From positions 62,001-126,000 of the forward strand of contig NZ_FQXQ01000006.1 in NCBI RefSeq assembly GCF_900130035.1: DNA of 64,000 nt, read 5' to 3'. The notes beneath the pieces are model-generated. The model was not told the origin of the DNA and searched no databases. It worked only from the letters and a program-made list of their open reading frames with translations. This document shows, one piece after another, positions 2,428 through 35,059 of this stretch. The number at the start of each line of letters is the position of its first letter. The first letter of the stretch is position 1. A program made the position numbers and the translations under genes. The stretch comes from Wenyingzhuangia marina. GTDB taxonomy: Bacteria > Bacteroidota > Bacteroidia > Flavobacteriales > Flavobacteriaceae.

Positions 2428-3489
2428 CTATTCTGTAAAATATATTTTTGAGGCACCAAGAGCTACTTTTGTTGTAAACACTTTTTCTTTAGTACTTAAA
2501 TCAAATACATAAAGATCACTTTGAGCAGTAAAGCTTGGTTCTACACCGTATAGGTTTCCGTTTTTAACTGCCATTCCATATAAACTTTGAGATATTAATG
2601 CTGTAGTTGGTAAAGTCTCTTCTCCTGAATTCACTTTATAAACCCCTCCTGATAGATAATAATATATTTGTCCGTTGTCATAAGTCATTAAACTAGGATG
2701 TTCCCCTTCTTTAAACTCTATCGTTTTTGTTATTGTATTAGTAGTAGTATTTATAATATGTATAGCTGCTTTTGTTTCACTTTTTATAGTTGGCCATGGA
2801 TCATAAACAATACTACCTTCCGATAGAACTAACAAATCTCCATTATTATTAAACAACAACTCATCTGGATTCTCTTTCACTGTAATTTCAACAACATCAT
2901 CAGTAGCTGTATCAATTACAGAAACAACATTATTTGTTCCATATGCTCCTTTGTGAGATACATATAACTTATTTCCTTTGACAACAATTTGTTCAGGACC
3001 ATTTGATACAGAAATTATTTTTTCAACAGCATTGGTATTTAAATCTGCAACAGCAATAAAATCATCTTCTGTGTTATATGGATCTCCCCAATTGGTAATA
3101 TATCCTTTATCTCCTACAACGGTCATAAAGCGAGGAGTGTTTAAGTCAGTTTTAATTTCTCCTGTTTTAATAAAAGTTTTTTTATCAACCACCGTAACCG
3201 TATTGGCATTATCTACAATAATAAAAGCACTATTTTCATTAAAAGCCATAGATTGTAAATAAGTCCCCAATTGAGTTCCGTTAGCACTTAAATAAATAAA
3301 TTGATATTTTAATGTTTGGTCTGATGACAGATAAGTAACTGAACCTGTCCCTGCTCCCGATCCTTCTCCGCTGATTAAAATTCCATTAGAATAATCTCTA
3401 TTTATTAACTCTATAGAATCATCATTATTACATGATACGATAATAAGAGCAATAACTAAAAGCTTTAATATTTGTTTGGTAATTTTCAT
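2428..3489 (-). CDS. BtuG-like surface lipoprotein, beta-propeller (DUF5074/YncE type)
   Basis: The product has 353 residues. A signal peptide ends in a lipobox, IVSC, with Cys20 as the lipidated residue, followed by an Asn/Asp-rich spacer. The remainder is repeated four-stranded blades (for example FIAVADLNTN, VVSVIDTATDD, AIHIINTTTN), a YncE-like propeller starting with GILISGEGSG. It lies 6 bp downstream of btuB under the cobalamin riboswitch. In Bacteroides, BtuG is a surface propeller lipoprotein that captures vitamin B12 with very high affinity and hands it to BtuB. By fold and position this is a BtuG-type protein. Corrinoid binding is inferred, not seen. The family call is firm; the exact ligand is likely but untested. 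Confidence 0.75.
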   Translation of the reverse strand: MKITKQILKLLVIALIIVSCNNDDSIELINRDYSNGILISGEGSGAGTGSVTYLSSDQTLKYQFIYLSANGTQLGTYLQSMAFNENSAFIIVDNANTVTVVDKKTFIKTGEIKTDLNTPRFMTVVGDKGYITNWGDPYNTEDDFIAVADLNTNAVEKIISVSNGPEQIVVKGNKLYVSHKGAYGTNNVVSVIDTATDDVVEITVKENPDELLFNNNGDLLVLSEGSIVYDPWPTIKSETKAAIHIINTTTNTITKTIEFKEGEHPSLMTYDNGQIYYYLSGGVYKVNSGEETLPTTALISQSLYGMAVKNGNLYGVEPSFTAQSDLYVFDLSTKEKVFTTKVALGASKIYFTE

Positions 3490-3495
3490 TTAATT

Positions 3496-5397
3496 TTAAA
3501 ATTTATAATTGATATTTAGGTTATAATTTCTTCCGGGCATAGGTCTTGAAATACTGTATAAATACAGCTGGTTAAAAATATTTTTAACCGCTAGTATCAC
3601 ATGTAAAGATTTGGTTCCTTTTTTTAACAACGAGACTCCTGTTCCTGCATTAAAAACAGTAAATCCATTTAATACTGCCCCGGGAGTGTTAATATTATCT
3701 TCTGTAGTATATACTTTACTCTGACTTAAATTCTGTACATAAGCTGTAAAAATATTATTTTGATAATTTACAGTGGCATTAAATAAATGTCTAGGCACAA
3801 AAATGAGTTCTTTATTTGTCTCTGTATCTTTTGCCACAGTATAGATGTAATTTGTAGCAACATCAACAGAATGGTATTTTGAAAAAGGATAACAAAAACT
3901 AGCATAAAATTCGGCTCCTTTATGGATAGATTCGTTTAAATTAATAGGAGTCCAAACATCAGGTCTGTTGATATCTCCAATAGGAGTCCAAATAATTTTA
4001 TCAAGAACATGCATATAAAACAAGGTGCTTTTAAAAGTAAACCAATCATTTTTATATTGATATCCTGCATCTATTTGTTTTGAGTTTTCTGGAATTAAAT
4101 CTTCATTACCTTGCCCTGGCCAATGCAAATCATTTAAGGTAGGCACTCTGTAATTGGTGGAAATATTTAAAAGGATTTCATTATTATCATTCAAAGCATA
4201 ATTACTTCCTAAAGAAAAAACAGTAGGTACTTTAAAAGCAGAATTAAATTCTTTTTTACTCTCAATATTATATTTCCATTGTTTGTTTATTATTGAATTA
4301 AACCCAAATGCAAAAGCATATTGTTCTCTGTATTTTTTATTTGGAACTCCACTTACATCCCCTTCTATATTTTGAATATCCACATAGGTATTGATAGTCG
4401 TTTTTTTATTAAAATGATATTTAAAATCATAATTAAACAACCATCTTTTAGATTTTCCAAAATCAAAACTATTGCTGTTTTTATTTTTAAAATACCTGTA
4501 CTCTTGTGTTAAATAAGCTGTTTTAACAACATGAGAAAACTGATTTTTCTGCACCTCCCAAACCAATAAATTACGCTGATTGATATCCTTATATTTTTCA
4601 TTCGCAGCACTTGGATTTTGCAATTCTCCCGAAAATAATCTATCTCCTTTAAAACCGGTGGTATAAAAACTTAACGTATTTCCTTCTGTAAATTGATACC
4701 CTACACTTAAATTTAATCCGTAATTTTCGTAATCACCATTACTATTCTTTAAATAATTTCCATTCGCATCTTTATACCTCTCATCAATTAAATCATAATC
4801 ATTATCGGATTTATTAAAATTTGCTCCTAACTTAAGTGCCCACTTTTCAGTTCCTAAATTGGTTTTTAAAAAATTAGAAGTCGTATTAAAACTCCCATAA
4901 GAACTAAACAATTGAAAATTTTGATGTTTGTGAAAGTACAGATTATCATTTGCATGGATAGAACCTCCAATAGCTCCAGAACCATATTTTACAGAACCTC
5001 CTCCGCTTTTTATTACAATTTCATCTGCTGTATTTAAAGACAAACTATTTAACCCTGTTTGTCCATTTCCAATAGCATTGACGTTAATTCCATTCCACAT
5101 AACTGCGGTGTTGGCTGCTGATGTTCCTCTAAAACGAGCAGAGCTTGTCCCTCCATTTCCATAATCTCTAATGGCAACTACAGAATTAAATCTTAAAGTT
5201 TCTGTAAGGTTTGTTGGGTTTTTTACAATATTATCCCCTGTTATAAGGGTAACTTTTTGACCAACTACATTATTTCTTACATAAGAATCGGCCACAATGG
5301 TAACTTTACCCAAACGATTAATTGAATCATTTTGAGCTACGGTAACAGCACAACAAAGCATGCTTAATAAAAAAAACGCATTACATAGTTTCATCAT
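3496..5397 (-). CDS. btuB: TonB-dependent corrinoid outer-membrane receptor (BtuB-like)
   Basis: The product has 633 residues. A signal peptide (about 1-21, ending VTVAQ) is followed by a plug domain (about 35-150, with LRFNSVVAIRDYGNGG and RGTSAANTAVMWNGI) and a long barrel that closes on an aromatic terminal strand (NLNINYKF). Length is normal for BtuB. The upstream leader is a cobalamin riboswitch with its own promoter, so it should be made when B12 is scarce. The next gene in the operon encodes a BtuG-like lipoprotein. Role: TonB-driven uptake of cobalamin or other corrinoids across the outer membrane. The start is the ATG ATG at 5397. Confidence 0.92.
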   Translation of the reverse strand: MMKLCNAFFLLSMLCCAVTVAQNDSINRLGKVTIVADSYVRNNVVGQKVTLITGDNIVKNPTNLTETLRFNSVVAIRDYGNGGTSSARFRGTSAANTAVMWNGINVNAIGNGQTGLNSLSLNTADEIVIKSGGGSVKYGSGAIGGSIHANDNLYFHKHQNFQLFSSYGSFNTTSNFLKTNLGTEKWALKLGANFNKSDNDYDLIDERYKDANGNYLKNSNGDYENYGLNLSVGYQFTEGNTLSFYTTGFKGDRLFSGELQNPSAANEKYKDINQRNLLVWEVQKNQFSHVVKTAYLTQEYRYFKNKNSNSFDFGKSKRWLFNYDFKYHFNKKTTINTYVDIQNIEGDVSGVPNKKYREQYAFAFGFNSIINKQWKYNIESKKEFNSAFKVPTVFSLGSNYALNDNNEILLNISTNYRVPTLNDLHWPGQGNEDLIPENSKQIDAGYQYKNDWFTFKSTLFYMHVLDKIIWTPIGDINRPDVWTPINLNESIHKGAEFYASFCYPFSKYHSVDVATNYIYTVAKDTETNKELIFVPRHLFNATVNYQNNIFTAYVQNLSQSKVYTTEDNINTPGAVLNGFTVFNAGTGVSLLKKGTKSLHVILAVKNIFNQLYLYSISRPMPGRNYNLNINYKF

Positions 5398-5433
5398 AAA
5401 TTTCCTTTGCTCCCGAAAGAATTTATATTGATG

Positions 5434-5614
5434 ATTGTGGCAGGTCTCCTGACTTGCGTCTTGTTACTACCTTCCCATTTATAAAAACAGTGGTATAAGT
5501 TTGTAACAAGCACCCTATTGGGCTAAGCTTACAGTTGCGGGGACAGTTCTTGATTTTAACAAGATTCCCTTTTAATTTTAGCTCTCAATTTCTTGAATAG
5601 CATAAAAACCAAAA
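5434..5614 (-). ncRNA. Cobalamin riboswitch
   Basis: Read on the minus strand, the leader holds the conserved pieces of the B12 aptamer in order: GGGAATC, then the B12 box core GTCCCCGCAACTGTAAGC, then GGGAAGG, then GACGCAAGTCAGGAGACCTGCC closing the 3' side. It lies between its promoter (-7 box 5621-5628) and btuB, and would switch off the btuB-btuG operon when adenosyl- or other cobalamin is bound. The exact 5' end is approximate. Confidence 0.95.
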
Positions 5615-5620
5615 TCGTGG

Positions 5621-5649
5621 CAAAAGTACGGTGTTTTTTTAGTTCTCAA
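5621..5649 (-). promoter_or_regulatory. Promoter of the btuB riboswitch operon
   Basis: On the minus strand TTG (5647-5649), an 18-bp spacer and TACTTTTG (5621-5628) match the Bacteroidota -33/-7 pattern. Transcription would start about 7 bp later, at the beginning of the aptamer. The -33 element directly follows the stop codon of the upstream gene. Confidence 0.75.
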
Positions 5650-6576
5650 TTATTTTTTATCAAAATAATTACAATACTTATGTTCTAAGCCTGTAGCTTC
5701 AGTAAAAACTGTAGGGTGAAATATTTTAGACAACACTATAATTCCATCTACCAATGTACTTGCCGATGATTGGGTAAACAAATCAAAATCTGCCAAGTAA
5801 ACTTGTTTATTTTGTACCGCTCTTAAAGTTTTCCATTCTGGTTGTGCTTCTAAAAACTTCATGTCTTCTAAAGTTCTTTCTTGGGTATAACCACAAGGAG
5901 CAATCACTAAAACTTCTGGGTTGTATTTTACTATTTTTTGCCAATCGATGACAATACTATCACCTGAGGGATGAGATAACAAATCTATTCCACCTGCATA
6001 CCCTATTTGATGAGGAATCCAATGTCCGCAATTAAAAAGGGGATCTATCCATTCTAACAACATCACACTTTTAGGCATCACTCTAGCCTCACGTTGCTTA
6101 TCAACTATATCTGCAATTTTATTTTTAAGAAAAGTAACATGGTCTTTTCCTAAAACTTCTTGATCTAAAGCTTTTGCTATGGTGATGACATTATCAAACA
6201 CATCTTCTAAAGATTGTGGAGTGATAGAAATCAGTTCTGGAATTTTTGCTAATTTATTTACTGCTAAAGAGGCACATTCAGTATCTATCTGACAAACATC
6301 ACATACATCTTGGGTAAACACAACATCTGGAGCAATTTTAGCCAAGGCAACTTCATCAACAAAGTATAAACTTTCTCCCGATGCTTTGCTTTTAGAAAAC
6401 AAGGTATTGATTTCATCACTAGTATAGCTCTTTCCTTCTAAAACACATCTTACCACGGGTGTTTTTTCTTTTAAAGCAACTTGCGGACATTCAAACGTAA
6501 TTCCATCTAACAAATCTTGCAGACCTAAATCGTAAATCATTTGTGTTACAGCTGGCATAAAAGAAGACACTTTCAT
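5650..6576 (-). CDS. Cobalamin-binding protein, BtuF-like, without signal peptide
   Basis: The product has 308 residues with the TroA/BtuF-type two-lobe fold: an N-terminal lobe (VSSFMPAVTQMIYDLGL), a cysteine-bearing loop near residue 93 (QDVCDVCQIDTEC), and a C-terminal lobe with PEVLVIAPCGY and QVYLADFD. No signal peptide or lipobox is present: the protein begins MKVSSFMP, and reading upstream in frame gives no further ATG before a stop. A cytoplasmic or non-classical location is therefore implied, unlike normal BtuF. It sits between the divergent cob operon and the riboswitch. It could bind corrinoids inside the cell, or need a start I cannot see. Confidence 0.75.
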   Translation of the reverse strand: MKVSSFMPAVTQMIYDLGLQDLLDGITFECPQVALKEKTPVVRCVLEGKSYTSDEINTLFSKSKASGESLYFVDEVALAKIAPDVVFTQDVCDVCQIDTECASLAVNKLAKIPELISITPQSLEDVFDNVITIAKALDQEVLGKDHVTFLKNKIADIVDKQREARVMPKSVMLLEWIDPLFNCGHWIPHQIGYAGGIDLLSHPSGDSIVIDWQKIVKYNPEVLVIAPCGYTQERTLEDMKFLEAQPEWKTLRAVQNKQVYLADFDLFTQSSASTLVDGIIVLSKIFHPTVFTEATGLEHKYCNYFDKK

Positions 6577-6671
6577 AGAAAATAAATTTAAGACTGCTAA
6601 TGTAAATTCTTTTTACAGATATTTTTTTTTAATCTTAAAAAACTTAGCAATCTTTGCTCAAAAATTTTGAT

Positions 6672-7175
6672 ATGATACATTACATCACCGGAGGAGAACG
6701 CTCTGGTAAAAGTAGCTATGCTCAAAAAATGGCAGAAGAATTAAGTCCAAATCCTTATTACTTAGCCACTTCTAGAATTTGGGATGATGATTTTAAAAAA
6801 CGCGTAGATAGACATATTTCTGATAGAGATGAACGATGGACAACCCTAGAGGAAGAAAAACATTTAAGTACTATTATTCCAGAAAACTCTGTAGTTGTGA
6901 TTGATTGTGTTACCTTATGGCTCACCAATTTTTACACAGATACAAAATATGATGTAGCAAAAAGTTTGTCTTTAGTTAAAGATGAACTAAACAAATTAAA
7001 AAAAGTAAATGCAACCATTATTATTATATCTAATGAAATAGGAATGGGCGTACATGCAAATACTGAAATATCAAGAAAATTCACCGAACTACAAGGTTGG
7101 GTAAATCAAGAAATTGCTAAATTAAGTAACAAAGCAACCTTTATGGTTTCTGGACTTCCAATGACTTTAAAATAA
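6672..7175 (+). CDS. cobU: CobU/CobP adenosylcobinamide kinase / guanylyltransferase
   Basis: The product has 167 residues from ATG 6672; an upstream in-frame TTG at 6654 would add six non-conserved residues. A P-loop GGERSGKS starts at residue 7. The region RHISDRDERW carries the His that is guanylylated in CobU, and VVIDCVTLWLTN and NEIGMGVHANTEISR are standard CobU motifs. It phosphorylates adenosylcobinamide and adds GMP, the first step of lower-loop assembly. It is the first gene of a tight operon (cobT starts 6 bp after its stop). A near-consensus -7 box (AATCTTTG, 6649-6656) lies just upstream; no riboswitch is visible here. Confidence 0.93.
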   Translation: MIHYITGGERSGKSSYAQKMAEELSPNPYYLATSRIWDDDFKKRVDRHISDRDERWTTLEEEKHLSTIIPENSVVVIDCVTLWLTNFYTDTKYDVAKSLSLVKDELNKLKKVNATIIIISNEIGMGVHANTEISRKFTELQGWVNQEIAKLSNKATFMVSGLPMTLK

Positions 7176-7181
7176 ATTATC

Positions 7182-8195
7182 ATGAACTTTCAAGAAACTT
7201 TACAACATAAAATAGACACCAAAACCAAACCTTTAGGATCTTTAGGGATCTTAGAAAAAATAGCTTTTAAAGTAGGAAATATTCAACAAACTACTTCTCC
7301 AATTTTATCAAAACCTGCTATTTTAATTTTTGCTGGAGATCACGGTATTGTGAATTCAGAACCTGTGAGTCCTTTTTCACAAGAAGTAACCACACAAATG
7401 GTTTTTAACTTTTTAAATGGTGGAGCAGCCATCAATGTATTTTGCCAACAGCACAACATCTCTTTAAAAATTATTGATGCAGGTGTAAACTATGATTTTG
7501 GGAAAATACCTTATTTAATTGATGCTAAAATAAACAAAGGAACTGCAGATTTTTGCATACAACCAGCCATGAATCTTGAAGATTGTAAAAAAGCAATCAA
7601 TAAAGGAAAAGAAATAGTTACCAAACAATTTACGGAAGGAACCAATATTATTGGTTTTGGAGAAATGGGGATTGGAAACACCTCTTCTGCTTCTTTACTA
7701 ATGAGTGCATATACCAAAACAGATATTAGTAAATGCGTGGGTAAAGGAACAGGACTTAATAATGATGCTACTAGGGTAAAAGCTGCTGTTTTAAGAAAAT
7801 CTCAAGAAACACACTCCAACATTACAAATCCACTGGAAATTTTAGCTACATTTGGAGGTTACGAAATTGCTATGATTACAGGAGCTATCCTCCAAGCAAA
7901 AGCATTAAATATGACGATTTTAATAGATGGTTTTATCGTAACATCCGCATTATTGGCAGCCCATGCTATAGAACCAAATGTTATAGATAATTGTATTTTT
8001 TCTCATTGCTCAGATGAACAAGGACATACCAAAATGTTACAATTTTTAAAAGCAGATGTCATTTTAAATATTGGACTGCGATTAGGTGAAGGAACAGGGG
8101 CTGCTTTGGCTTATCCTTTGGTACAATCTGCTGTAAAATTTTTAAACGAAATGGCTAGTTTTGAAAGCGCCAATGTGACCAATAAATTAAGTTAA
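7182..8195 (+). CDS. cobT: CobT nicotinate-nucleotide:dimethylbenzimidazole phosphoribosyltransferase
   Basis: The product has 337 residues, the usual length. Motifs seen are KPLGSLGILE at the N-terminus, FAGDHGIV, GEMGIGNTSSAS in the middle, and GEGTGAALA near the C-terminus, which contains the catalytic Glu of the family. It activates the lower ligand base to alpha-ribazole phosphate for attachment by CobS. Spacing is 6 bp from cobU and 1 bp to cobS, so translation is probably coupled. No genes for making dimethylbenzimidazole are nearby, so the base is presumably salvaged or made elsewhere. Confidence 0.95.
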   Translation: MNFQETLQHKIDTKTKPLGSLGILEKIAFKVGNIQQTTSPILSKPAILIFAGDHGIVNSEPVSPFSQEVTTQMVFNFLNGGAAINVFCQQHNISLKIIDAGVNYDFGKIPYLIDAKINKGTADFCIQPAMNLEDCKKAINKGKEIVTKQFTEGTNIIGFGEMGIGNTSSASLLMSAYTKTDISKCVGKGTGLNNDATRVKAAVLRKSQETHSNITNPLEILATFGGYEIAMITGAILQAKALNMTILIDGFIVTSALLAAHAIEPNVIDNCIFSHCSDEQGHTKMLQFLKADVILNIGLRLGEGTGAALAYPLVQSAVKFLNEMASFESANVTNKLS

Positions 8196-8196
8196 T

Positions 8197-8949
8197 ATGA
8201 AAAAAGAAATTGCTGTTTTTTTAACGGCTATTATGTTTTTCACAAGAATTCCTTGTCCTAAAAACATAGATCACTCCCCTGAAATACTAGCCAAAAGCAG
8301 TCGTTACTTTTCTTTGGTAGGAATTATTGTTGGAGCTTTTGGAGCCTTGGTATTTTATGTGGCTGAGTTTCTTTTTAATGATGCTATTTCCATACTCCTA
8401 AGTATGGCAGGAACTATTTGGATTACAGGTGCTTTTCACGAAGATGGTTTTGCCGATGTTTGCGATGGTTTTGGTGGCGGTTGGACCAAAGAAAAAATAT
8501 TAACCATTATGAAAGATTCTAGAGTAGGAACTTATGGAATTGTAGGTTTAGGGTTGTTATTAGCTATTAAATATCAAGCCCTTTCAGAATTTGATATTTA
8601 CAATTGTATTGTTGCCATCATTGCTGGTCATGCTATTAGCAGATTTGCTGCCACTACTCTAATTTATACAGAACCTTATGTACAAGATATCAATAAAAGT
8701 AAAGTGAAACCATCGGCAATTGGGATTCAATTAAAAGATGTCATCATTAGTGGAATCTTTGCCATTATTCCGTTGATTTTCTTTTTTAACATCTATGTAT
8801 TTCTTGCTTTTATTCCAGTAATGATATCAAAATACATGTTGGCAAAATATTTTCACAAATGGATTGGTGGGCACACAGGTGATTGTGCAGGTGCTACACA
8901 ACAAGTTTCGGAAGTCGTCTTTTATTTAAGCTTATTAATTATTCTATGA
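8197..8949 (+). CDS. cobS: CobS adenosylcobinamide-GDP ribazoletransferase
   Basis: The product has 250 residues and is a polytopic inner-membrane protein. It carries the conserved acidic motif of CobS, FHEDGFADVCDGFGGG (about 82-97), followed by MKDSRVGTYG, and has several hydrophobic helices afterwards. It joins adenosylcobinamide-GDP to alpha-ribazole (phosphate), the last condensing step. Its TGA overlaps the ATG of cobC (ATGA, 8946-8949). Confidence 0.95.
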   Translation: MKKEIAVFLTAIMFFTRIPCPKNIDHSPEILAKSSRYFSLVGIIVGAFGALVFYVAEFLFNDAISILLSMAGTIWITGAFHEDGFADVCDGFGGGWTKEKILTIMKDSRVGTYGIVGLGLLLAIKYQALSEFDIYNCIVAIIAGHAISRFAATTLIYTEPYVQDINKSKVKPSAIGIQLKDVIISGIFAIIPLIFFFNIYVFLAFIPVMISKYMLAKYFHKWIGGHTGDCAGATQQVSEVVFYLSLLIIL

Positions 8950-9485
8950 TTCTTTATTTAATAAGACATACCACACCAGACATAGACAAAGGAATTTGTT
9001 ACGGGCAAGCAAACCTTCCACTTTCTGAGGATTTTGAAGAAGAGGCTAATTTTTTATTATCAAAACTAAAAAACCACGAAATTCAACAAGTCATTAGTAG
9101 TCCTTTACAAAGATGTACTAAATTGGCTAACAAAATAAAAGCTGATTTCACCACAGATGATAACTTAAAAGAATTAGATTTTGGAGATTGGGAATTGATG
9201 GATTGGAATAAAATTCCGCAAGAAGAAATTGATCCTTGGATGCAAGATTTTGTTCATGTTCCCGTTCCTAACGGAGAAAGTTATATGGATTTATATTTAA
9301 GAGTTTTGTCTGTGTATCAGAACATAAAAAAAGACAAAACCGCTTTGGTTACTCATGCTGGAGTCATCAGAAGTATTTTAGCACATATCACCCAAACAGA
9401 CTTAACAAATTCTTTTGATTTTAAAATTCCTTACGGAACCATTGTACAAATAGATACTGAAACCAACCAATATCAAATTCTTTAA
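8946..9485 (+). CDS. cobC: CobC alpha-ribazole phosphatase (histidine phosphatase family)
   Basis: The product has 179 residues starting at the ATG that overlaps the cobS stop; a longer in-frame version from 8883 would lie within cobS and is not needed. The phosphohistidine motif is near residue 7 (LIRHTTPD), with the second-site motifs SSPLQRC, ELDFGDWE and VTHAGVIR. It removes the phosphate from alpha-ribazole-5'-phosphate or from adenosylcobalamin phosphate. The operon position with cobU, cobT and cobS supports the specific role over a generic phosphoglycerate-mutase-like phosphatase. Confidence 0.9.
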   Translation: MILYLIRHTTPDIDKGICYGQANLPLSEDFEEEANFLLSKLKNHEIQQVISSPLQRCTKLANKIKADFTTDDNLKELDFGDWELMDWNKIPQEEIDPWMQDFVHVPVPNGESYMDLYLRVLSVYQNIKKDKTALVTHAGVIRSILAHITQTDLTNSFDFKIPYGTIVQIDTETNQYQIL

Positions 9486-9487
9486 AT

Positions 9488-10612
9488 ATGAAGTTTTTTA
9501 CTCATCTTTTTATTATATGCACTCTTATTGCTTGTCAACCTAAAGCAAATAAAAAAACAGAAAACAAGGCTGTTATCAAGCCAGAGTTTGCCAAAGGATT
9601 TACATATGAAAAATATGCTAAGTATATAAAAGTGATTGTAAAAACTCCCTATAAAGGAGCCACAACTCCATATGAATATATTATTGTTAAAGGAGATACA
9701 GTTATCAAACCGAGTAATGAAAATCAAATCATAATCAACACTCCTTTAAAAAAAATCATCGCTACTTCTACCACACAAATTCCTGTTTTAGAAGCTTTAA
9801 AAAGTGAAACTTTATTAAAAGGATATCCCAACACCAAGTTCATCTCTTCTAAAAAAACCAGAACTTTAATAGACAACGGTAGCATTGTAGATATTGGTCA
9901 TGAAGAGCATATGAATACAGAAATGGTTTTGGATATTCAGCCTGATATCTTGTTTGCTTTTGCGGTAAACAACATCAACAAAAACTTTACCACCTTAAAA
10001 AAAGCAGGAATCCCCATTGTGATTGATGCTAGTTGGCTTGAAGAAACTCCTTTGGGTAGAGCAGAATGGATTAAGTTTTTTGCCTTGTTTTTAAACAAAG
10101 AAAAAGAAGCAAATTTAGTTTTTGATGAAATCGTGAAGAACTATCACACAGCGTTAAAAACTATTCCTGACAACATTCATAAACCCAATGTTTTATACGG
10201 AGGAATTTACAATGATATTTGGTACACTCCTGCTGGAGATAGTTATGTAGCACAAATTATGAAAGATGCAGGCACCAACTATTATTGGCAAAATACAGAA
10301 AGCACAGGAAGTTTGGCTTTACAATTTGAAGAAGTATTTGTAGAAGCTAAAAATGCAGATTTTTGGTTTGCTCCTGGTTATGCTCTTGATAAAAAAGCAT
10401 TGGCTAATAACAACAAACACTATTCAAGTTTTAAACCTTTTAGCACCAATAATATTTATACGTACACAAATACTGTTGGAGAAACTGGTGGATTAGTATT
10501 TTTTGAATTGGGTGCTTTAAGACCTGATTTAATTTTAAAAGATTTTATTAAAATATGTCATCCAGAGTTATTACCAGATTATGAAACTACTTTTTTTAAG
10601 AGGTTGGAGTAA
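9488..10612 (+). CDS. ABC-type corrinoid/iron-complex substrate-binding lipoprotein (BtuF/FecB-like)
   Basis: The product has 374 residues. A lipobox LIAC places the lipidated Cys at residue 16. The mature part has the TroA-like fold of the FecB/BtuF group: KKIIATSTTQIPVLEAL, then LDIQPDILFAF, GIPIVIDASW, a helix linker, NVLYGGIYND and a closing lobe. It starts 2 bp after cobC, so it belongs to the B12 salvage operon and most likely hands corrinoids to an inner-membrane permease. Neither the permease (BtuC) nor the ATPase (BtuD) is encoded in this window. A different metal-chelate ligand remains possible. Confidence 0.8.
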   Translation: MKFFTHLFIICTLIACQPKANKKTENKAVIKPEFAKGFTYEKYAKYIKVIVKTPYKGATTPYEYIIVKGDTVIKPSNENQIIINTPLKKIIATSTTQIPVLEALKSETLLKGYPNTKFISSKKTRTLIDNGSIVDIGHEEHMNTEMVLDIQPDILFAFAVNNINKNFTTLKKAGIPIVIDASWLEETPLGRAEWIKFFALFLNKEKEANLVFDEIVKNYHTALKTIPDNIHKPNVLYGGIYNDIWYTPAGDSYVAQIMKDAGTNYYWQNTESTGSLALQFEEVFVEAKNADFWFAPGYALDKKALANNNKHYSSFKPFSTNNIYTYTNTVGETGGLVFFELGALRPDLILKDFIKICHPELLPDYETTFFKRLE

Positions 10613-34921: not shown

Positions 34922-35025
34922 AAAAAAGGGCAAGCTGCCTACATCACACCGCTACAACCAAGTACCCTTGCTGCGTTCCCGCCCTGGGGGATTCCGAGGG
35001 AGCTAGTTGTGTAGGACTTGCCCGG
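34922..35025 (-). ncRNA. ffs: Signal recognition particle RNA, 4.5S type
   Basis: Read on the minus strand, the domain-IV core GGCGGGAACGCAGCAAGGGTA is clear, as are the closing stem GGGCAAG / CTTGCCC and a terminal T-run (TTTTTT) that ends transcription. The length is about 100 bases, with no Alu domain. It binds Ffh to target membrane proteins. This gene occupies most of an otherwise empty 336-bp gap; the remaining bases hold only a short hairpin (34868-34888). Confidence 0.93.
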
Positions 35026-35028
35026 CGG

Positions 35029-35059
35029 CAAATTTACAACCTTATTACAATTCTCACAA
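35029..35059 (-). promoter_or_regulatory. Promoter of the SRP RNA
   Basis: TTG (35057-35059), 20 bp and TAAATTTG (35029-35036) form a consensus Bacteroidota promoter directly upstream of the RNA. Confidence 0.8.

Follow-up and report, generated by a model that had tools for sequence, protein, structure and literature searches.

A signal-less BtuF-fold protein family with four conserved cysteines in Bacteroidota B12 loci, possibly a cytosolic handler of corrinoids

In animals, the cytosolic decyanase and dealkylase MMACHC (CblC) processes vitamin B12 by glutathione or flavin chemistry, and in bacteria the fate of cobamides between the inner membrane and the enzymes that use them is poorly known. 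Here we describe a protein family, FCYT, that provides a concrete protein to examine at this step, encoded in a 64,000-nucleotide stretch of the Wenyingzhuangia marina genome (NCBI RefSeq assembly GCF_900130035.1, contig NZ_FQXQ01000006.1, positions 62,001 to 126,000, forward strand), hereafter the window. For E. coli BtuF, excerpts of PMC5269720 give Y50, W66, W85, F162, F168 and W196 as contact residues. BtuM is presented in part of PMC6072759 as an S-component that decyanates B12 via one cysteine, and the same excerpts state that BtuB without BtuCDF occurs in many Gram-negatives that require B12. The gene btuG is, according to portions of PMC6143338 and PMC10404256, exclusive to Bacteroidetes and encoded by almost all Bacteroidetes B12 loci. 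Lastly, DUF71-B12 PP-loop ATPases, marked by the motif ENGE[FY]H, have been proposed in sections of PMC3541065 to act as a CbiZ-like amidohydrolase that converts pseudo-B12 to cobyric acid, which re-enters via CbiB.

The FCYT protein of the window, encoded at 5650-6576 on the reverse strand, combines a known fold and pathway with an apparently new compartment and pocket, and its sequence and predicted model suggest a family of its own, built on the BtuF fold. The initial annotation had proposed that it carries no export signal, and the reading frame bears this out: its ATG (6576) falls, in alignment, where mature E. coli BtuF begins, and the 12 codons upstream contain no ATG, GTG or TTG and are preceded by an in-frame TAA, which rules out an upstream start that would supply a signal peptide. 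Among 132 distinct homologues, the longest possible open reading frame (ORF) leaves 10 residues or fewer before domain position S5 in 108; the other 24 could start further upstream, and none of their extensions resembles a convincing signal peptide, verdicts on signal peptides being drawn from ORF-start positions and reading by eye. FCYT is also ruled out as the periplasmic binding protein of the unit, because an exported BtuF-type lipoprotein is encoded 2.9 kb away (9488-10612), behind cobU, cobT, cobS and cobC. We infer that FCYT stays in the cytosol; we are far more confident of its non-export and of a role in B12 metabolism than of the chemistry that we propose for it below.

The AF2 model of FCYT (predicted local distance difference test score, pLDDT, 92.9) has the two-lobed class III binding-protein fold. 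Its top Foldseek match is Vibrio BtuF (5ysc, E 1.1e-14), and in VIA it matches E. coli BtuF (1n2z) with Z 22.0 and a root-mean-square deviation (rmsd) of 2.9 over 236 residues. FCYT thus shares with BtuF the fold, the Peripla_BP_2 family and a place in a B12 locus, but differs in lacking an export signal, in carrying E, Q and E where E. coli BtuF has Y50, W85 and F162, and in having four conserved cysteines that have no counterpart in the E. coli protein.

The full set of these cysteines, C30, C92, C95 and C228, occurs in 130 of the 132 homologues (an alignment from which matches below 150 bits, the weak matches L019-L021 and 6 identical rows of 138 were left out). The two exceptions are an N-terminally cut fragment without C30 and L018, which has S, T, L and Y and hence none of the four. 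The Cys-rich loop noticed in the initial annotation, TQDVCDVC, is accordingly a signature of the whole family. The pattern used to scan the named loci contained C92 and C95, so that rows found without it in whole-genome searches were counted apart: 55 of these 56 rows, the window's included, carry all four cysteines and one carries none, which rejects pure selection bias as the source of the signature, with some bias remaining in the count since the search profile itself includes the Cys columns. Further conserved positions in the 132 homologues are Q89, E175 and W186 (132 each), E29 (126) and H185 (104).

To place these residues on BtuF we relied on MAFFT and hhalign, as hmmalign left the key columns mostly gapped when the exported BtuF proteins were aligned to the FCYT profile. 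MAFFT puts E29, Q89, E175 and S207 at Y50, W85, F162 and W196 of E. coli BtuF, and hhalign agrees on all four pairs. C30, C92 and C228 fall in MAFFT at S51, G88 and G217, with C95 in a gap; hhalign likewise pairs C30 with S51 and C228 with G217, and places C92 in an insertion. C30 follows the Y50 position and C228 lies in a C-lobe loop, the N lobe contributing C30, C92 and C95. Across 49 FCYT rows the six contact positions of the E. coli aromatic cage read E, L, Q, E, F/Y and S (the placement of W66 being unsure), with F or Y at the F168 position in 102 of the 132 homologues. Since the cavity differs in this way from that of E. coli BtuF, corrinoid binding is not transferable from BtuF to FCYT; from the locus context it is nevertheless plausible. 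In the binding-protein fold, the loops after the strands are the ligand position, and in the model the pocket residues occupy the loops that immediately follow strands E23-27, E85-88, E169-174 and E222-225; the four cysteines may, on alignment and model, form a shared site near the cleft. Outside the pocket, the position of BtuF E72 is variable in FCYT (V in the window) and that of E202 is mostly E or D (Q in the window), whereas all 9 of the exported BtuF proteins aligned have Glu at the two positions; these are presumably the two glutamates that dock to BtuC.

The locus in which FCYT lies contains the following features, among them the three ORFs that the initial annotation had reported, whose coordinates we confirmed:

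2428..3489, reverse strand: btuG-like surface lipoprotein with propeller (PF16819), 353 amino acids (aa); Pfam DUF5074; best PDB matches are BtuG structures
3496..5397, reverse strand: btuB, TonB-dependent receptor, 633 aa; Pfam TonB plug and barrel; PDB matches of BtuB type
5422..5628, reverse strand: cobalamin riboswitch, RF00174, 104.1 bits (gathering threshold 31.5), full length
5650..6576, reverse strand: FCYT, signal-less BtuF-fold protein, 308 aa; Pfam Peripla_BP_2; C30, C92, C95, C228 and also H185
6577..6671, no strand: intergenic region from which FCYT and cobU diverge, an arrangement that recurs in related Flavobacteriaceae loci
6672..7175, forward strand: cobU, PF02283 (1.5e-51); ATG at 6672 (listed ORF begins with TTG at 6654)
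7182..8195, forward strand: cobT, by profile matches
8197..8949, forward strand: cobS, by profile matches
8946..9485, forward strand: cobC-type alpha-ribazole phosphatase, TIGR03162 above cut-off; ATG at 8946 (listed ORF begins with TTG at 8883)
9488..10612, forward strand: exported BtuF-type binding protein (lipoprotein, judged by eye), by Pfam match

Two of these elements, the riboswitch inside the interval and the exported BtuF, were absent from the initial annotation. The riboswitch stands upstream of btuB-btuG and downstream of the FCYT gene. The exported BtuF is likely the partner of an unlinked BtuCD, as another contig of the 3.24-Mb window genome carries a single full-length FecCD (BtuC) next to an ABC ATPase; two additional FecCD matches are weak. 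The same genome holds a third Peripla_BP_2 protein (L123:5732-6544, reverse strand, contig C8, 270 aa) with no signal peptide evident at its start, and its gene adjoins a pyrF-like gene. Downstream of uptake, profile searches of the window genome matched a PduO-type adenosyltransferase, no CobA-type adenosyltransferase, and a MetH-sized B12-binding protein together with a second weak match. The gene order BtuF-CobC-CobS-CobT-CobU, with FCYT and the receptor running the opposite way, is common to loci of Wenyingzhuangia, Flavicella, Tenacibaculum and Algibacter, and BtuG is also present in 8 of 11 uncut loci with this order. On the FCYT tree (77 rows, 60 of them labelled), the window protein groups beside a Wenyingzhuangia relative (73% identity) within the Flavobacteriaceae.

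We next compared 80 named loci, which are the best among at least 587 FCYT relatives, counting neighbours within about 7 kb; some loci are short contigs, so that the counts are minima, and FCYT itself fell into the neighbour cluster in 77 of the 80. Clusters of TonB receptor, Cob, BtuC, BtuD, BtuF and BtuG were labelled by resemblance and position, while the labels DUF6580, DUF71, Sir2 and CWC were checked by Pfam searches with one or two members or near relatives. The neighbours are a TonB receptor in 62 loci, DUF71 and DUF6580 in 38 each, cobU in 31, cobT in 29, cobC and cobS in 27 each, exported BtuF in 21, btuG in 20, BtuD in 16 and BtuC in 11, and a cobalamin riboswitch was found in all 10 of these loci that were scanned. 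DUF6580 and exported BtuF are mutually exclusive, occurring together in 0 of 80 loci (P 5.6e-8, a value confounded by kinship), and they alternate with at least four switches over the labelled rows of the FCYT tree. FCYT therefore accompanies two different inner-membrane routes, which indicates a step after import. A small Cys-rich protein adjoins FCYT in 6 of the 80 loci, the one tested (L054:7830-8153) matching Pfam CWC, and FCYT itself bears a Cys-rich C-terminal extension in L098 (6953-8068), L101 (2151-3233) and L011; that of L098 gave no CWC match by Pfam. A scan of viral contigs found no relatives, and PHROGs gave no match.

DUF6580 (PF20221) is a protein of about 190 aa encoded between the TonB receptor and FCYT, for example at L068:6293-6877 (forward strand), and at 37 other loci. 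In VIA, its model (pLDDT 87.0) matches BtuM best (Z 13.5, rmsd 3.6 over 170 residues), and rows 1-18 are all, by title, S-components or CbiMQO, a related cobalt transporter; Foldseek matches are weak (best E 0.12). Sequence and model thus suggest an S-component fold nearest to BtuM and make DUF6580 a candidate B12 transporter. DUF6580 lacks the invariant cysteine of BtuM, with no invariant Cys among 24 sequences. The exclusion from BtuF is used here only at the level of loci: by genome, DUF6580 occurs in 25 of 48 with FCYT and 93 of 248 others, which is not significant (P 0.08). The window genome has no match to DUF6580 in a search that detects the family in 118 of 296 genomes, and we found no paper on it in the open-licence PMC literature. 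DUF6580 may be the inner-membrane B12 importer that is missing from organisms with BtuB and no BtuCDF and would, if so, fill part of this gap.

To follow FCYT at the level of genomes, we used a sample of 296 genomes of the phylum and counted FCYT at 238 bits or more, the next match scoring 84.9 bits; G388, with a partial FCYT, and two DUF71 genomes and one DUF6580 genome with only sub-cut-off matches remained uncounted. FCYT is present in 48 genomes, and DUF71 occurs in 40 of these 48 and in 44 of the 248 others. CbiB was found in 57 of the 296 genomes but in only one with FCYT (47 of 48 lack it) and in none of the 84 with DUF71 above the cut-off; most CbiB genomes come from one family (f73), and the P values of these co-occurrences are confounded by kinship. 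All 39 DUF71 copies near FCYT carry E[NQ]GE[FY]H, 37 of them the exact ENGE[FY]H, and the copy of the window genome, on another contig, has ENGEFH. The DUF71-B12 ATPases described in excerpts of PMC3541065 thus share B12 loci with FCYT, but the CbiB route put forward there does not fit our sample, for which we reject the idea that DUF71 replaces CbiZ and feeds CbiB.

Taken with the locus context, these data make it quite possible, as a tentative reading, that FCYT is a cytosolic corrinoid-handling protein whose thiol or metal site processes the upper ligand after import. FCYT would receive the imported corrinoid in the cytosol, in a site where, by alignment, the four cysteines, with E29, Q89, E175, W186 and often H185, replace most of the aromatic contacts of E. 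coli BtuF. A thiol, a thiol-bound metal or a cluster would then remove or reduce the upper ligand, and the processed corrinoid would pass to the adenosyltransferase and to CobU and MetH. FCYT would act independently of the type of inner-membrane importer and together with the ATP pyrophosphatase DUF71-B12. BtuM offers a precedent for cysteine-on-cobalt chemistry during uptake, whereas FCYT is soluble and of another fold. With CblC, FCYT would share cytosolic upper-ligand processing, but not the fold nor the glutathione or flavin chemistry. A wider formulation strikes us as rather doubtful, namely that FCYT founds a family of cytosolic thiol- or metal-cluster corrinoid processors that have the fold of a periplasmic binding protein and are the bacterial equivalent of CblC, in CbiB-less scavengers that have DUF71-B12 and either BtuFCD or DUF6580, the latter being an unrecognised BtuM-like inner-membrane B12 transporter.

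Several observations weigh against upper-ligand processing by FCYT. The chemistry leans on analogy with BtuM as described in part of PMC6072759, and we found no binding or activity data for the FCYT family; corrinoid binding, metal content and the link to DUF71 are likewise inferred. VIA ranks the heme-binding protein 2r79 (Z 23.9) above BtuF, and the fold therefore does not identify the ligand. FCYT is without most of the cavity aromatics of E. coli BtuF, so its ligand may differ; however, most of the E. coli cage is missing as well from the nine exported Bacteroidota BtuF proteins aligned (of 22), three of which have a Cys in the C228 column, which makes the contrast between FCYT and BtuF less sharp within the phylum. 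By sequence, the pocket difference from BtuF is clear for the N-lobe cysteines and less so elsewhere. The loop with C92 and C95 is the least confident part of the model (block pLDDT 67), and FCYT aligns with E. coli BtuF at about 16-18% identity. Several distant taxa have, judged by eye, no evident B12 gene beside FCYT, and in the window FCYT lies upstream of the riboswitch, a position that does not speak for B12 regulation there. Finally, the distribution of FCYT is patchy, with 48 of 296 genomes overall and 3 of 30 from the window's own family, and the protein is therefore not required for B12 use.

Four other explanations have to be set against this. Were FCYT a plain cytosolic buffer or carrier of corrinoids, perhaps with a cysteine on the cobalt, that hands its cargo on without chemistry, its binding-protein fold and its occurrence in B12 loci alongside one importer type or the other would be accounted for; four near-invariant cysteines, two glutamates and a glutamine exceed, however, what one axial ligand needs, and we consider such a carrier unlikely. 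We are equally sceptical of a model in which the four cysteines hold a metal ion or iron-sulfur cluster and FCYT, with DUF71-B12, modifies the corrinoid periphery in an ATP-dependent manner (for example at a side-chain amide) and not at cobalt. The genomic and local association with DUF71, the DUF71-B12 motif in the neighbouring copies and the window-genome copy, and the Cys-rich neighbours and extensions all speak for it, but 8 of the 48 FCYT genomes lack DUF71 and 44 genomes have DUF71 without FCYT.

The neighbourhood argues against a cytosolic sensor or a binder of something other than a corrinoid, such as free metal or heme, that sits in B12 loci by chance: its genes are specifically those of B12 salvage and uptake, and each of the 10 loci scanned has a cobalamin riboswitch; even with a heme-binding protein as best VIA match and four cysteines suggestive of metal we find this explanation quite unlikely. 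Export without a classical signal, as an extra periplasmic BtuF, would agree with the BtuF fold and the position beside btuB, and yet seems highly improbable, given the lack of space for a signal sequence in 108 of 132 homologues, the exported BtuF already in the locus, the loss of conservation at one of the two glutamates that presumably dock to BtuC, both of which all nine exported BtuF proteins retain, and the 38 loci with DUF6580, none of which has BtuF nearby.

The surface capture unit that the initial annotation had assembled holds for BtuB and the BtuG-like lipoprotein but does not include the signal-less protein. At E 0.001 or better, BtuB matches four PDB chains and no others, all of BtuB type (best E 2.2e-27); against the NCBI equivalog TIGR01779 it scores 97.3 bits, below the cut-off of 599.7. 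The lipoprotein gene adjoins btuB, and its product begins MKITKQILKLLVIALIIVSCNNDD, with a lipobox Cys20 (judged by eye) kept in 13 of 13 aligned homologues. As a single sequence, its best PDB match is to Bacteroides BtuG chains (E 2.9e-18), and a profile of the 13 homologues matches BtuG over positions 5-357 (E 4.2e-65), so that sequence-profile homology to the seven-bladed BtuG propeller covers its full length. As in the Bacteroides BtuB-BtuG complex, the two genes are adjacent behind a cobalamin riboswitch, and the suggested BtuG-type arrangement is thus borne out, but is not new: on this evidence btuB and the btuG-like gene are a normal Bacteroidota capture pair. By homology to known families, BtuB and BtuG would capture cobamides at the cell surface, and the exported BtuF with the unlinked BtuCD would import them.

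FCYT, in turn, warns that BtuF-like genes are not necessarily transporter parts. The family is tied to B12 loci in Bacteroidota and is found in other phyla too; no description of it was found in the open-licence PMC literature, and in annotations elsewhere it may go by no more than the name cobalamin-binding protein. B. theta BtuX (BT_1949) is, according to excerpts of PMC12751083, signal-less and newly named, and may or may not be related to FCYT.

Two further features of the window lie outside the capture unit. A DUF7935 gene at 1840-2358 stands beyond btuG, and a similar protein (cluster c28, labelled by resemblance) occurs near FCYT in 7 loci. At 34924-35030, on the reverse strand, the window encodes a small signal recognition particle RNA of the Bacteroidales type (RF04183, 114 bits), despite the flavobacterial genome.

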